Assembly: GCA_937918905.1 (NCBI GenBank)
Contig: CAKZSH010000110.1
Span: 1-34,380 of the forward strand
Length of the DNA: 34,380 nucleotides
Reading direction: 5' to 3'
Origin: an uncultured Saprospiraceae bacterium
GTDB taxonomy: Bacteria; Bacteroidota; Bacteroidia; Chitinophagales; Saprospiraceae
Part shown: piece after piece, positions 23,922 to 28,654 of the stretch
Layout of the letters: every line of letters starts with the position of its first letter
Position numbering within the stretch: the stretch's first letter is position 1
Notes under the pieces: model-generated
Databases searched by the model: none
The model's input: the letters and a program-made list of their open reading frames with translations, nothing else
What the model was told of the DNA's origin: nothing
Position numbers and translations under genes: made by a program

Positions 23922-24404
23922 ATGATATTCCAAGGCATACTAATATTAATAGGAACATTTTTGGTAATGGAAGGCATAACATGGTGTACACATAAATATG
24001 TAATGCATGGTTTCCTTTGGTATTTACATGAAGATCATCACCAACCCAAGTACCCACATCCATTCGAAAAAAATGATTTGTTCTTTGTCATTTTTGCGGC
24101 ACCAAGTATTGCATTGATTTATTTTGGAAATGAAGCAGGTTACGACTACCGATTTTGGGTAGGATTTGGAATAGCAGCATATGGCGCAGCGTACTTTTTT
24201 GTACATGATATTTTTATCCATCAAAGATTTAAATTATTTAAAAATATAGATAACGCTTATTTCAAAGCATTGCGGAAAGGACACAAAGTGCATCATAAAC
24301 ATTTAGGAAAAGAAGAGGGCGAATGCTTTGGAATGTTGTGGGTACCTTATAAATATTTCAAAGAAGCGGCAAAGAGTAAAAAGAAACAGCGAATTAAAAC
24401 TTAA
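23922..24404 (+). CDS. crtZ: Beta-carotene 3-hydroxylase
   Basis: A 160-residue integral membrane diiron hydroxylase of the fatty-acid hydroxylase superfamily that makes zeaxanthin from beta-carotene. All histidine boxes are seen: HKYVMH (about 27-32), HEDHH (about 40-44), HDIFIH (about 98-103) and HKVHH (about 123-127). Hydrophobic helices lie at about 3-22, 50-66 and 78-97. It is last in the cluster and its stop codon overlaps the first base of the terminator stem. Its substrate needs a lycopene cyclase, which is not encoded in this window. Confidence 0.95.
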   Translation: MIFQGILILIGTFLVMEGITWCTHKYVMHGFLWYLHEDHHQPKYPHPFEKNDLFFVIFAAPSIALIYFGNEAGYDYRFWVGFGIAAYGAAYFFVHDIFIHQRFKLFKNIDNAYFKALRKGHKVHHKHLGKEEGECFGMLWVPYKYFKEAAKSKKKQRIKT

Positions 24405-24446
24405 AAAAAGCCTCGAATTTTCAACTTGAAAATTCGAGGCTTTTTT
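24404..24446 (+). terminator. Terminator of the crt cluster
   Basis: Perfect 21-bp arms, AAAAAAGCCTCGAATTTTCAA (24404-24424; written here in full as the key stem) and its complement at 24426-24446, ending in TTTTTT. It starts in the crtZ stop codon and is symmetric, so it can stop transcription from both sides. Confidence 0.92.
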
Positions 24447-24599
24447 ATGATTGTAATGTCAAAAGTGGGATTAGTGAATTGGTTTAATGGTTCATTAGGT
24501 TAGCGCGAATCGAAATTCGGATCGCAATATTTTTGATCACCAATTTGCTTAATTAACTATTTAACCAATTCACTAATTCACTTTTGACATTACAATCAT
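24447..24599. repeat. Heptad-armed palindromic element, copy 3 (reverse orientation)
   Basis: Arms of about 52 bp (24447-24499 and 24548-24599) are complementary with a few mismatches (shared ATGATTGTAATGTCAAAAGT, then TTAGTGAATTGGTT). The shared core is on the minus strand: AATTGGTGATCAAAAATATT then GCGA. Right-arm units read ATTCACT, AATTCAC, TTTTGAC. Directly follows the crt terminator with no gap. Confidence 0.75.
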
Positions 24600-24683
24600 A
24601 TAACTTCCTACAAATCAATGACTTACAAAAATTTAGTTCCATAAATCTTTGTGATTCTTTTCAATGGTACATATATTGCACTA

Positions 24684-25377: not shown

Positions 25378-25541
25378 TTAGTTGAAGAGGAGGAAGATTT
25401 GATATATTTTATCCTTTTGTTACATTGAACTCTATAACATGTTTTTCTAAGCGAAAAAGTACTCATAATATTTTCTAGATTATAGAATGATGATACATTA
25501 CCAAGATGATTAAAATTAAAAAATAATTGTAGTAAAACTTG

Positions 25542-25699
25542 TACCGAATTTAATAATATATGTCGTACATATTGAATTATCTTTCGCCGCTACTCTTCGT
25601 TAAAAAGCCTCATGATAGCTAGGCTATCCCTACTTTTTTTGCCTCGATTATCGACAAAATCTAAATCAATATACACGACACCTCGAATTAAATTCGGTA
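25542..25699. mobile_element. MITE-like element, 158 bp
   Basis: Terminal inverted repeats of about 33 bp (25542-25574: TACCGAATTTAAT...TGTCGTACATATTGA; 25666-25699: TCAATATACACGACA...AATTAAATTCGGTA), imperfect. The interior is unlike its surroundings: GCCGCTACTCTTCG, a GATAGC-TAG-GCTATC hairpin and two GCCTC-containing stretches next to A or T runs. There is no reading frame. Copy number and target duplication cannot be judged from one window. Confidence 0.5.
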
Positions 25700-26028
25700 T
25701 AAAATTCAAATTTTCCTATGAAAAAATGTTACTTTTTTTTTCCTTACCGTTATGCTAGCAAATTCCTCCAAAATGAAAATGAATTGTTATAAAAATTCAC
25801 TTTTCATTTTAAGATTGTTTCAAATCAATTTTTACAAAAAAGACAACAGAACATTTACGGACTTAAGAAAAGTCAGTTTTTAAGATCATTGGATTTTAAA
25901 AATTAGCCCATCTTATTTTTAATTCAACTAAGTAACGCACTTGGTTGAGAGTAGATGTTAATGTCTTGTTATGAATTTTATTATCTAATTTCTTCAGCCT
26001 TAATTGGTTGAGGTCAAATATTAAACCT
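25700..26028. other. Leader region of gldM
   Basis: 329 bp of AT-rich sequence between the MITE-like repeat and gldM. No gldL is present. Only short frames (for example from 25718) are seen and none is convincing. It probably carries the gldM promoter; no element could be assigned. Confidence 0.4.
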
Positions 26029-27546
26029 ATGTCATTACCTAAAGAGCCTCGTCAGTTGATGATAAATCTGATGTATCTAGTTTTAACTTGTATGTTGGCA
26101 CTCAATGTTTCCGCAGAAGTATTGAATGCTTTTTTATCCATGGATAAAAGTATTGGAGAAAGTAGTCGAATTGTGGGAGATTCCAATGGACAATTGTTTT
26201 CTGCAATTGAACAACAAGCAGATGCCTATTCGCAATTTGCTCCTTTTAAAGATAAAGCGAATGAAGCGCAAATTTTAGTAAAAGAATTCTATCAATATGT
26301 TGGAGATTTAAGAGAAGAGTTGATAGCAACTTCTGGAGGGTTGGATGAAAATAATGAACCTAAAGCCAAACAGAAAAAAGAACCTGCGACTCGACTTTTT
26401 GTCAATGAAGGCAAAGGAGATGAATTGGAAAATCGAATTATTGAAGTGCGACAACAATTACTCGATTTGATTGAGGATGGAAATGAAAAAGAATTGTTAG
26501 ATAAAATTTTGCCTCTAGAGTTGCAACCGATTCCAGAGGATTCAGATAAAAAATCATGGGCACAATTTACATTTCAGCAGATGCCTGTAGCGGCGGTTTT
26601 GCCCATACTTTCCAAATTTCAAAATGATGTAAAGATTGCGGAGAGTGCGATTCTAAGTCATTTTTATAATAAAGTGCAAGGAGAGAAAATTGTATTTGAT
26701 GAGTATGCGGCAGTCATTTCTGCTGATAAAAGTTACGTTATCAAAGGAGAAGAATTGTCTTCAGAAATTTTTCTATCTGCATTTAGTACGACTGCTGATA
26801 ATATTTCCATCAAAGTAAATGGACGACCGATTGAAGTGAGAAATGGAAAAGCATTGTTTAATATTCGTCCGAATGAAATTGGAAGTCAAAGTTTTACAGC
26901 AGAGATTTCCATGACCAATCCAATATCAAAAAAAGTAAAAACCTATACCAAGAAATTTAATTACGAAGTAGGCGAGCGTTCTGTAACGGCGTCTGCTGAT
27001 AAAATGAATGTATTTTATTTAGGTGTTGACAATCCTTTTTCCGTTTCCGCCGCTGGAGTTGCGAGTAAAGATGTGAACGTTTCGAGTAATGATGTCCGTT
27101 TGGAAAAAATTCGAAATGGTAAGTTTAATGTAAAACCTACCCAGGTTGGTGAGGCAAAAATTGTAGTCTCTGGCGGTGGATTGGATCCTACTAATTTTAT
27201 TTATCGAGTAAAGCGAATACCTGATCCTGTGATTCGATTGGGGCGGAAAGGTGAGACGGGTATGTCGCCTGCAAAGTTTAAAGCTTTTAAAGGTTTGTTA
27301 GCGATTTTGGAAAACTTTGATTTTGATGCAAGGTGCAATGTTGCGGGATATGAAATCACTAGAGTTCCTGAAAGAGGAGATGCAGAGGTAGTCAAAAATC
27401 AAGGTGGTAAATATTCTAGTCAGGCTAGGAATTTGATTAATCGGGCTAGGTTTGGAGATACTTATTTTTTCGATCAAGTGAGGGTTAAATGTCCTGGAGA
27501 TAAGGCATCAAGAAAGTTGAATGGGTTGAGTATTAAAATTCAGTAA
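26029..27546 (+). CDS. gldM: Type IX secretion/gliding motor protein GldM
   Basis: Inner-membrane protein whose single N-terminal helix pairs with GldL to form the proton-driven T9SS motor and whose long periplasmic part reaches the GldK/GldN ring. The ATG at 26029 gives 505 residues, close to the usual 510-520; a TTG at 26008 adds seven residues and is not preferred. The N-terminus (MSLPKEPRQLMINLMYLVLTCMLALNVSAEVLNAF) is the family hallmark, including the conserved membrane helix (12-32). The helical domain (about 35-215) is followed by three beta domains (about 220-310, 315-400, 405-505) ending in RKLNGLSIKI. The immediate upstream region has no gldK or gldL. Downstream lies gldN after a 120-bp gap that contains one arm of a palindrome. 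Confidence 0.97.
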   Translation: MSLPKEPRQLMINLMYLVLTCMLALNVSAEVLNAFLSMDKSIGESSRIVGDSNGQLFSAIEQQADAYSQFAPFKDKANEAQILVKEFYQYVGDLREELIATSGGLDENNEPKAKQKKEPATRLFVNEGKGDELENRIIEVRQQLLDLIEDGNEKELLDKILPLELQPIPEDSDKKSWAQFTFQQMPVAAVLPILSKFQNDVKIAESAILSHFYNKVQGEKIVFDEYAAVISADKSYVIKGEELSSEIFLSAFSTTADNISIKVNGRPIEVRNGKALFNIRPNEIGSQSFTAEISMTNPISKKVKTYTKKFNYEVGERSVTASADKMNVFYLGVDNPFSVSAAGVASKDVNVSSNDVRLEKIRNGKFNVKPTQVGEAKIVVSGGGLDPTNFIYRVKRIPDPVIRLGRKGETGMSPAKFKAFKGLLAILENFDFDARCNVAGYEITRVPERGDAEVVKNQGGKYSSQARNLINRARFGDTYFFDQVRVKCPGDKASRKLNGLSIKIQ

Positions 27547-27549
27547 ATT

Positions 27550-27764
27550 AAGCCCCCAGCTCCCAAAACTTCGGGAGAGCCTTTTTCTTTTGCCTTTCGG
27601 TAAGAGAAAAAGTTCAGGGGAATGTGATTTTAGAAAATTATTTATTCTCAAAAAAATAAAATAATAATGATTAAAAGTAATGTGATTCAAGTATTAATAA
27701 ATTTTTTCTCTTGCCGAAAGGCAAAAGAAAAAGGCTCTCCCGAAGTTTCGGGAGCTGGGGGCTT
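27550..27764. repeat. 64-bp-arm palindrome spanning the gldM-gldN junction
   Basis: Left arm 27550-27613 begins 3 bp after the gldM stop; right arm 27700-27764 lies inside gldN codons 12-33. They are complementary with about three mismatches. Each arm holds a smaller hairpin (CTCCCGAAG/CTTCGGGAG type) and GC-rich ends (AAGCCCCCAGCTCCC), unlike the AT-rich context. The 86-nt loop contains the gldN ATG (27667) and a direct repeat of AATGTGATT. In mRNA this stem would present the gldN start in a loop. Confidence 0.85.
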
Positions 27765-28557
27765 TCTCTTAATCTGTATTTGTATTGTTATTTCAAATGT
27801 AAGTTATTCACAAGTTGAAGTATTAGATGGAATAACAAAAAAAACTTTAATGAAAGACCGTCAAGTTTTACAACATCGAATGCCACGTGAAGCTGATGTT
27901 TTTTGGGAAAAAAGAATATGGCGAGTAATTGATGTTAGGGAAAAAATGAACTTACCATTTTTATATCCTGAATCTCCATTTTTTACCATTTTACAAAATG
28001 CGGCTATGAATGGAGAAATCAATTTGTATTCTGCTGTGGATGATAAATTTTCAGAGCGACTTACGGATTTTGATGGTATTTTTTCAAGTAGAGATACGGG
28101 GTGGATTGTTGATCCAGAAACCTATGATGAGAAGGTTCAAGTTTATGAAAACTTCATCAATTTTGAAGACATCAAAAGATTCCGAATCAAAGAAGTTTGG
28201 TATTTTGATGAAGCGACTTCTACAATGAATGTTCGAATATTAGGGATTGCGCCTATGCAAGATGTTATGGATGACAATGGAAATTTTAGATTTGAAAAAC
28301 CATTGTTTTGGATTTATTTTCCAGAGTTGAGAAATGTAATTGCAAGGCATGAAGTATATATTCCAGGTAATGATAATCAAGTGATTTCTTGGGATGATTT
28401 ATTTGAAATGCGATATTTTGCAAGTACGATATATAATGAAGGAAATGTTTATGGAAGAAGAATTAAAGATTATGCGGAAGGCTTGGATAGACTTTTGGAA
28501 GCGGATAAAATCAAACAGGAGTTATTTAATTTTGAACATGACTTGTGGAGTTACTAA
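27667..28557 (+). CDS. gldN: Type IX secretion/gliding protein GldN with an expanded signal peptide
   Basis: Periplasmic ring component of T9SS (PorN/GldN), partner of GldK and of the GldM tip. The 296-residue protein has the family core DVFWEKRIWRVIDVREKMNLPFLYP (about 77-101) and LFWIYFPELRNVIARHEVYIP (about 215-235). The N-terminus is odd: MIKSNVIQVLINFFS, then CRKAKEKGSPEVSGAGG encoded by a palindrome arm, then the hydrophobic segment FLLICICIVISNVSYSQ with its cleavage site. No in-frame ATG, GTG or TTG occurs after the arm before the mature part, so translation must run through it. Export should still work because the hydrophobic core and SYSQ site are intact. It is co-transcribed with gldM. 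Confidence 0.95.
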   Translation: MIKSNVIQVLINFFSCRKAKEKGSPEVSGAGGFLLICICIVISNVSYSQVEVLDGITKKTLMKDRQVLQHRMPREADVFWEKRIWRVIDVREKMNLPFLYPESPFFTILQNAAMNGEINLYSAVDDKFSERLTDFDGIFSSRDTGWIVDPETYDEKVQVYENFINFEDIKRFRIKEVWYFDEATSTMNVRILGIAPMQDVMDDNGNFRFEKPLFWIYFPELRNVIARHEVYIPGNDNQVISWDDLFEMRYFASTIYNEGNVYGRRIKDYAEGLDRLLEADKIKQELFNFEHDLWSY

Positions 28558-28559
28558 GT

Positions 28560-28654
28560 TAATTGAAAATTAAAAATGGAGAATTGAAAATTTTCGTAGT
28601 GCGGTGATCTACATTATTCGAAATTTTTAATTCTCCATTTTTAATTTTCAATTA
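28560..28654. repeat. Heptad-armed palindromic element, copy 4 (convergent gap)
   Basis: Left arm 28560-28596 reads AATTGAA, AATTAAA, AATGGAG, AATTGAA, AATTTTC; the right arm 28619-28654 reads TTTTAAT, TCTCCAT, TTTTAAT, TTTCAAT. The loop holds GCGGTGATCTACATTATTCGA, the shared core (given here in part only as GGTGATC...TATTCGA). The element fills the space between the gldN stop (28557) and the rfbD stop (28655) exactly. Confidence 0.85.

Follow-up and report, generated by a model that had tools for sequence, protein, structure and literature searches.

How a gene can have its beginning encoded by repeat DNA and still be read is the question raised by a gldN gene in the window (i.e. the whole 34,380-nt stretch of an uncultured Saprospiraceae bacterium that was analysed). 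Between gldM and gldN, we observed a palindromic element of 215 bp (27550-27764), made of two 65-nt arms (27550-27614 and 27700-27764) that are 95% complementary and have 85 nt between them. The original prediction was right about this inverted repeat and about its other arm following gldM, and wrong about the arm length, which was given as 64 nt. Folding of 27545-27770 (226 nt) yielded -125.1 kcal/mol, as compared to -48.7 (SD 4.6) in shuffled sequences (z -16.5; 0 of 200 equal). All features of the element lie on the + strand. The left arm (27550-27614), which matches the arm model R1 described below with E 3e-20, has the outer end AAGCCCCC and contains a terminator-like hairpin (27560-27577), followed by AGCCTTTTTC. 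The fold of the element also contains a weak central hairpin (27617-27649), which by eye, as an unscored reading, may be a decayed form of the one found in sibling elements, such as GTTCAAGGAATTATTTTCA..GAAAATAATTCCCTGAA in G000:C33 (G000 being the window's own genome). The inner spacer (27650-27699) holds the present gldN start codon, ATG 27667, together with codons 1-11, and an A-rich stretch 5' of this ATG is like the leaders of the relatives' genes. The right arm (27700-27764; model R1, E 1.7e-20) overlaps gldN codons 12-33 (NFFSCRKAKEKGSPEVSGAGGF), in agreement with the 22 or so codons first proposed. As had also been noted, the arms bracket the gldN start, which sits in the palindrome loop, and no usable start follows the right arm: the next in-frame ATG, GTG or TTG is at 27850, well within the mature part.

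As judged by consensus match alone, the element has the features of an intrinsic terminator (a GC-rich hairpin, then a T run), and three terminator-like sites were found in 500 nt against 0.3 expected from shuffles, one of which is on the + strand, behind gldM. All six frames are open through the arm. Only 7 of 5000 65-mers of the window have this property; selection for it need not be invoked, because 1797 of 5000 dinucleotide shuffles of the arm (36%) are open as well. A search of Rfam gave below-threshold matches only, mostly to miRNA families, which we took to be caused by the long stem, and PADLOC gave only weak matches (E 8e-5 and 3.5e-4).

The two genes flanking the element are second copies. 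The gldM gene (26029-27546, + strand; PF12081/PF12080/PF21601/PF21602, TIGR03517) starts with MSLPKEP, as set by comparison with relatives, and its C-terminus, LNGLSIKIQ, ends at the same place as in these; its stop codon (27546) is separated from the left arm by a 3-nt spacer. The gldN gene (27667-28557, + strand) encodes 296 residues and was identified with Pfam and NCBIfam (PF19841, TIGR03523). No gldK or gldL adjoins the pair. An intact canonical gldK-gldL-gldM-gldN cluster, whose GldN bears a normal-looking signal peptide, is present at G000:C130, and the order gldM, gldN, reductase (-), RelA-SpoT type (-) recurs in four same-genus relatives (G001-G004, of which G003 is 66% complete); thus the window pair is a conserved second copy. 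From their sequences, we take the neighbours to be a MerR-type regulator, a dTDP-sugar reductase and a RelA-SpoT type protein; among G001-G004, the MerR-type ORF ahead of gldM was longer than the 120-aa limit for listing in G004 alone. Since gldKLMN is intact at G000:C130, it is doubtful that the arm lies, as had been supposed, in an essential secretion component. The spacers of this window contain long inverted repeats of several further kinds: one at 28560-28654, directly between the gldN stop codon and the convergent reductase gene, with 34-nt arms that are 97% complementary and 27 nt apart, nested 28-nt (89%) and 25-nt (96%) pairs at about 24443-24603 in the spacers around the MerR-type gene (region 24404-24603), and a worn 68-nt pair (71%) at 25539-25702, also in a spacer by that gene.

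The arm-encoded segment and the element are absent from the second GldN (GldN2) of 4/4 same-genus relatives, in which the protein starts with MKNILLICICIV.. or similar, i.e. MKN followed by the hydrophobic core. The syntenic gldM-gldN pair is kept in G001-G004 with spacers of 67, 103, 161 and 76 nt, respectively, and the gldM stop is at the identical place in all five genomes. In the alignment, homology of the own GldN2 to its relatives resumes at FLLICICIV, directly after the arm (N-terminus MKNILLICICIVMSHAAFSQ in G003 against arm plus FLLICICIVISNVSYSQ in the own genome), and at the DNA level the G003 junction ATGAAAAATATC/CTTTTAATCTG lies opposite GCTGGGGGCTTT/CTCTTAATCTG. The outer end of the right arm, GGGGGCTT, occupies the position that in the relatives runs from the start codon to codon 4, and by this comparison of sequences the arm end sits on the ancestral gldN start codon and codons 2-4. 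The idea that the arm was simply inserted in frame, into a signal peptide that was left intact, does not hold: the arm end replaces the ancestral start and codons 2-4, and a start inside the element is needed. An ancient coding origin of the segment was considered and is ruled out by its absence from 4/4 relatives. The hydrophobic core LLICICIVI is unchanged and is preceded by about 32-33 residues, with 5 K/R and 2 D/E, as compared to 3-4 residues in the relatives. Other, unrelated hairpins were seen by eye at the gldM-gldN junction of G003, G004 and G001 (L043 1365-1480; L044 1428-1455; L045), of type CGCAGAGTTACACAGAG in G003 and CACGTGGTGGTC..GACCACCACGTG in G004, with a worn form of the latter in G001; those of G004 and G001 are flush with the gldM stop.

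The reading that we favour, with a probability of roughly 70%, is that the 215-bp structure is a copy of a palindromic element dispersed in the genus, which replaced the gldM-gldN spacer and the first gldN codons and left the frame open from an element-borne ATG, with an unchanged core and with expression probably lowered or retuned. It builds on the repeat family, the absence of the element in relatives, the lost ancestral start, the open frame and two parallel cases. Such an element would consist of two arms of about 65 nt, each of two hairpins, around a variable centre, often with a terminator-like hairpin, and on arriving between gldM and gldN it would have replaced the intergenic spacer along with the first gldN codons; the way in which it moved is something we infer. 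What would keep the gene open is an arm free of stop codons together with an in-frame ATG upstream in the element. With an open arm and no start shortly after it, translation would have to begin at the element-borne ATG 27667 (or at another upstream start). The GldN2 signal peptide would then be an n-region of about 32 residues followed by the unchanged hydrophobic core, and the protein would presumably still be exported. In the RNA, the left arm would form a terminator-like hairpin and the two arms could anneal to a long stem whose loop holds the start codon, which makes a lowered expression likely; the element probably lowers or retunes gldN2 in this way. The loop by the ATG resembles the relatives' gldN leaders, and the element may therefore retain some of the native 5' region.

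The arm belongs to a dispersed repeat family. The 226-bp element query gave 59 matches at E<=1 in the own genome, counted in both orientations (40 of 138 first-look candidates were scored, and some matches are one arm read in both directions). With model R1, made from 10 arms, 32, 14, 8, 4 and 21 matches at E<=1 were found in G000-G004, i.e. in all five genomes, with 150 candidates scored per genome and with weak and shadow matches included in the lists. Matches with E<1e-9 occur in G000, G001, G002 and G004, and the best one in G003 (66% complete) has E 7e-4. The search of the genome thus bore out the proposed repeat nature of the arm, and paired copies are present in the own genome and in 3/4 relatives. 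As the segment is absent from relatives and the arm is dispersed, neither of the findings that had been named as speaking against the original prediction (the same segment in relatives without a palindrome, or an arm unique in the genome and of ancient coding origin) was made. Many copies form inverted pairs with a length of about 205-365 nt (641 nt at G004:C13), with an outer hairpin CTCCCGAAACTTCGGGAG or CCCCTAAAGGGG or a variant and frequently another hairpin in the centre; the consensus of the 10 arms ends ..GGGGGCTTAA. Copies about 90% alike lie at unrelated places, and places with one arm only were also found in the own genome.

When 37 arms, chosen from the matches of the element query and of model R1, were examined, 26 faced the 3' end of an ORF, with the stop codon at most 6 nt from the arm end in 24 of these and 19 and 59 nt inside the element in the two exceptions, a count made on chosen arms without a placement control. 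By reading, seven of the remaining 11 arms are at a gene start or no more than about 25 nt away from one (gldN2, DUF4249, ruvX in four cases, a TPR gene). The count leaves out reverse-strand shadow matches, G003:C88 (which reads as a plain hairpin), G002:C32, G004:C8, weaker matches, the C60 right arm and three loci (L213-L215). Flushness is not general: a DUF559 element in G148 lies about 25 nt from the upstream stop. Copies are found beside orthologous genes, namely ruvX in G000, G001, G002 and G004, an ABC permease in two genomes, where the copies carry different arm types, and ABC-F in two. The identity of ruvX is given by Pfam in G004 only; that of ruvX in G000, G001 and G002, of the ABC permease and of ABC-F is presumed. 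No target-site duplication was seen by eye in three empty-site comparisons (gldN2, DUF4249 and coaX), which show replaced spacers. At G000:C174 (L194) and G000:C33 (L196), the C-terminal ends of two host genes seem to extend into an arm; one gene stops inside the arm and the other crosses the left arm into the centre. The own genome also holds a second, MITE-like family with 37-nt arms of type TTAGGGAGTAGGAATTAAATAACCTACCC, separated by 93 and 91 nt (L004 1265-1431 and L038 1607-1771), a single arm of which is found in L013, from about 1697.

Two further genes show the same arrangement as gldN2. In G000:C99, the upstream gene, presumably a TonB-type receptor, ends ..VAYNFKF TGA/GCCCCC, and about 211 bp further on an arm covers about codons 1-6 of a DUF4249 lipoprotein gene (PF14054), which now begins MNNRIKINLLRKRSRNFGSWGLALLSLLIFNSC (MNNRIKINLLRKRSRNFGSWG). 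The lipoprotein of G004 and G002 is MKKYFLFLITI(L/F)LLTSC, behind spacers of 46 and 43 nt; G001 has a distant relative only (34% identity) and G003 has none. The second gene is coaX, which follows a gene that we take to be purH. In G002, the upstream stop is followed by a 24-nt spacer and MNLIFDIG, and in G001 the same start lies behind a 140-nt spacer holding another inverted repeat. In G004, the stop TAA/ACCCCC is followed by the element and then by AGG GGG/TTA ATC ATT GAC, giving the N-terminus MSKAKKTTQLKEKSYSPLGARGLIIDIG. The G000 N-terminus, MSISKSTNVSRSSGANLIIDIG, holds the worn sequence AGGAGCTCGGGGGCTAAC, which can be read as an arm relic, and G003 has only a distant match. In all three genes the upstream stop is the host's own, and the element reaches from just behind this stop to somewhere in codons 2-6 of the gene that follows. 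As with the core of gldN2, the hydrophobic core (DUF4249) or the kinase domain (coaX) starts immediately at the end of the arm. Spacer, start codon and one to about five more codons appear to have been replaced, the native spacer being absent by eye, and the element would supply the new upstream ATG; parts of the native spacer could survive inside it. The exchange seems to be of recent date in gldN2 and of older date in coaX, where, provided that the G000 relic is correctly read, it would predate the G000/G004 split. This would be a route by which a gene swaps its start codon and the front of its signal peptide for repeat DNA and stays open.

The family also leads to a nuclease. A DUF559 gene is found within the R1-type arms of G004:C13, with two copies of the central hairpin flanking it; the one in G001:C295 has 49-nt arms of a second type around it, and the one in G000:C177 adjoins a third arm type, on one side only. 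These are 3/3 DUF559 matches in the five genus genomes searched, PF04480 having no match in G002 and G003. DUF559 is a PD-(D/E)XK (Vsr-like) nuclease to which Pfam assigns no role; D86, E97, H103 and R128 are kept in 26/26 aligned proteins, and the endonuclease-like protein 3hrl_A is the sole clear relative of solved structure. PF04480 matches were found in 84/199 Saprospiraceae genomes and in 109/198 genomes sampled across Bacteroidota. Each locus was scored by the best inverted repeat between its 500-nt flanks, a score of 16 or more being a pass. In Saprospiraceae, 25/66 stand-alone loci passed, as compared to 0/60 small-ORF controls (23/63 if the three genus loci from which the idea arose, two of them passing, are set aside); in the other Bacteroidota, 33/59 passed, as compared to 0/45 small ORFs and 1/400 random placements, the phylum controls being taken from 20 genomes, most of which belong to that same set. 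Small-gene controls of both sets together thus passed in 0/105 cases, and 41/66 and 26/59 DUF559 loci remained below 16. At a score of at least 14, the figures are 34/66 and 37/59 loci versus 3/60, 1/45 and 5/400 controls. Some loci share a genome and therefore DUF559 loci are not independent. Domains in long ORFs, left out of the stand-alone counts (7/30 in the Saprospiraceae set, 11/30 in the phylum set), were scored apart, and 1/11 passed. In an earlier scoring of 30 loci with 600-nt flanks, the random-control maximum was 17 in 300. Passing arms have a G+C of at least 0.5 in 20/25 (Saprospiraceae) and 32/33 (phylum) cases. The association ties this widespread nuclease to GC-rich palindromes. 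Arm distance tracks protein distance (Mantel r 0.33, 0/5000 permutations, n=35; r 0.23, 7/5000, n=27 without proteins more than 70% identical), host kinship being uncontrolled in both tests.

Two genomes, G148 and G151, searched with the arms of their own DUF559 elements, look from their sequences like hosts of a gene-carrying form with gene-less derivatives. In G151, 32 arms make 13 gene-less pairs of 118-192 bp, a count that excludes both arms of the DUF559 copy, 16 MITE passengers, two more equal-score copies and their partner arms; in G148, 61 arms (two at DUF559) make 25 pairs, mostly of 134-163 bp. A recent palindrome burst in G151, as identical-score copies might indicate, was rejected: 16 copies ride in another MITE with its own 20-nt ends. 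This MITE (L332-L347) is about 260 bp long, has the ends CTGTCGATTACCCACAAAT and carries the CCCCTAAAGGGG palindrome in 16 near-identical copies, with flanks that resemble target duplications. The arms of the G151 DUF559 element (L255 1379-1455 and 1955-2031) include the 3' end of the neighbouring ORF (..KID stop), inverted on the far side, as if one arm had been lengthened by copying flank sequence. The gldN element is probably a non-autonomous member of the DUF559-linked palindromes. DUF559 would mobilise these, or it could instead be their guest. We put forward only tentatively, and at somewhat less than even odds, that a large, undescribed class of palindromic elements owes its mobility to the stand-alone DUF559 nucleases of Bacteroidota. 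Every lineage of the nuclease would then be paired with a GC-rich palindrome of its own; complete elements would have the gene enclosed by the arms, and gene-less ones would spread in trans, lie flush with coding ends and sometimes give new starts or N-termini (gldN2, DUF4249, coaX). This wider association is the more novel part, and its mechanism is what we infer; among the papers listed, judged by titles or abstract beginnings, none was found on these palindromes or on DUF559 with palindromes.

If DUF559 were mere cargo or a guest, a RAYT (Y1 transposase) or some other transposase might spread the palindromes, which we regard as rather unlikely. PF01797 genes are present at 8 loci in 3/5 genus genomes, Bacteroidetes subclass 2.6 RAYTs are described in excerpts of PMC6006769 as flanked by atypical hairpins, and 16 of the G151 arm copies do ride inside another MITE. 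However, no convincing R1 arm was found at the 8 PF01797 loci (best E 1.6), G002 has element copies yet no PF01797 match at E<=0.001, at the four of these loci scanned for inverted repeats, the GC-containing ones, where present, differ in sequence from the arms, and a GT[AG]G foot is not seen in the arm alignment. For lack of cognate arms at the PF01797 loci, RAYT was rejected as the element's partner.

It is unlikely, too, that gldN2 lost its start and signal peptide and is turning into a pseudogene whose open frame through the arm is luck. Another GldN with a normal-looking signal peptide is present, and the six-frame openness of the arm is shared by more than a third of its dinucleotide shuffles (36%). 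Moreover, GldN2 changed faster relative to GldM2 than in G003 (own-lineage changes 14 vs. 9 in G003 for GldN2 and 11 vs. 34 for GldM2; 14/23 vs. 11/45, Fisher p 0.007), and therefore some relaxed constraint is possible, although the difference fits normal use equally well. Against this, the full 296-aa frame and the mature GldN2 are intact and dN/dS versus G003 is low (dN 0.15, dS 1.56), and the same arrangement would have persisted in coaX since before the G000/G004 split, if the G000 relic is correctly read.

Replacement by a single element also has to be weighed against separate entry of the two arms, one behind the gldM stop and the other inside the gldN signal peptide, with the native spacer and ATG surviving between them. 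The loop stretch AAAATAATAATGATTAAAAG is, by eye, like the relatives' leaders (e.g. AAAAATAATAACATGAAAAAT), and single-arm places exist in the own genome. Nevertheless, the arms of one element share variants that are rare in other copies (CTCTT and AAAAGAAAAAGG in C110; ATAGG and CTCTACC in C337), and therefore behave as a unit. By eye, the central hairpin in the loop is similar to the one of sibling elements, there are about 10 residues more than expected from the gldN ATG to the arm, and in G004 coaX the element-typical GTTTGACGAT lies between arm and ATG, all of which makes two separate entries a doubtful account. Weakest of all, and improbable, is an immobile two-way transcription terminator of gene ends that changes by gene conversion and not by transposition: stop codons abut the edges, there are terminator-like hairpins and T runs, and several copies lie beside orthologous genes (ruvX in four genomes, ABC permease and ABC-F in two each), but copies about 90% alike occur at unrelated places, the relatives' orthologous junctions are without the element, and it intrudes into coding sequence.

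Replacement by a mobile palindrome, as we propose, can be compared with several known systems. The original prediction likened the locus to the palindromic elements of Rickettsia (RPE; WPE in Wolbachia), and the likeness stands for behaviour: a palindromic repeat capable of a long stem-loop is read within a host protein with the frame unbroken. RPEs, in the excerpts of PMC3767692 and PMC2229807, are 100-150 bp units within ORFs, and a whole element lies in frame inside an existing ORF that keeps its start; here, in contrast, the 215-bp palindrome is a spaced one that codes with a single arm, the other arm lies in the spacer, and the ancestral start is replaced, so that, compared by description, the element would not be best described as an RPE. 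With REP/REPIN-RAYT systems it shares dispersed hairpin repeats in inverted pairs and a nuclease-type gene (here DUF559) among its own repeats. The associated gene, however, is a PD-(D/E)XK (Vsr-like) nuclease and not a Y1 HUH transposase, no cognate Y1 gene flanked by the same repeats was found, and the element does not have the GTAG/GTGG tetranucleotide that, in excerpts of PMC6006769, is the foot of REP hairpins, with subclass 2.6 as an exception. In the inverted-repeat-replacing transposition of IS1272, as given in excerpts of PMC5678879, an element with tnp replaces inverted repeats; our element likewise replaces local sequence, with no target-site duplication seen by eye, but what is replaced is spacer and start codon, and no tnp lies within it. 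As compared to bacterial MITEs, nearly the whole unit can be palindromic and no known transposase lies between the arms; like them, it is a short element with terminal inverted repeats, and it has a longer gene-carrying relative with the same ends, the R1-type arms around DUF559 at G004:C13, the DUF559 gene of the own genome adjoining a different arm type.
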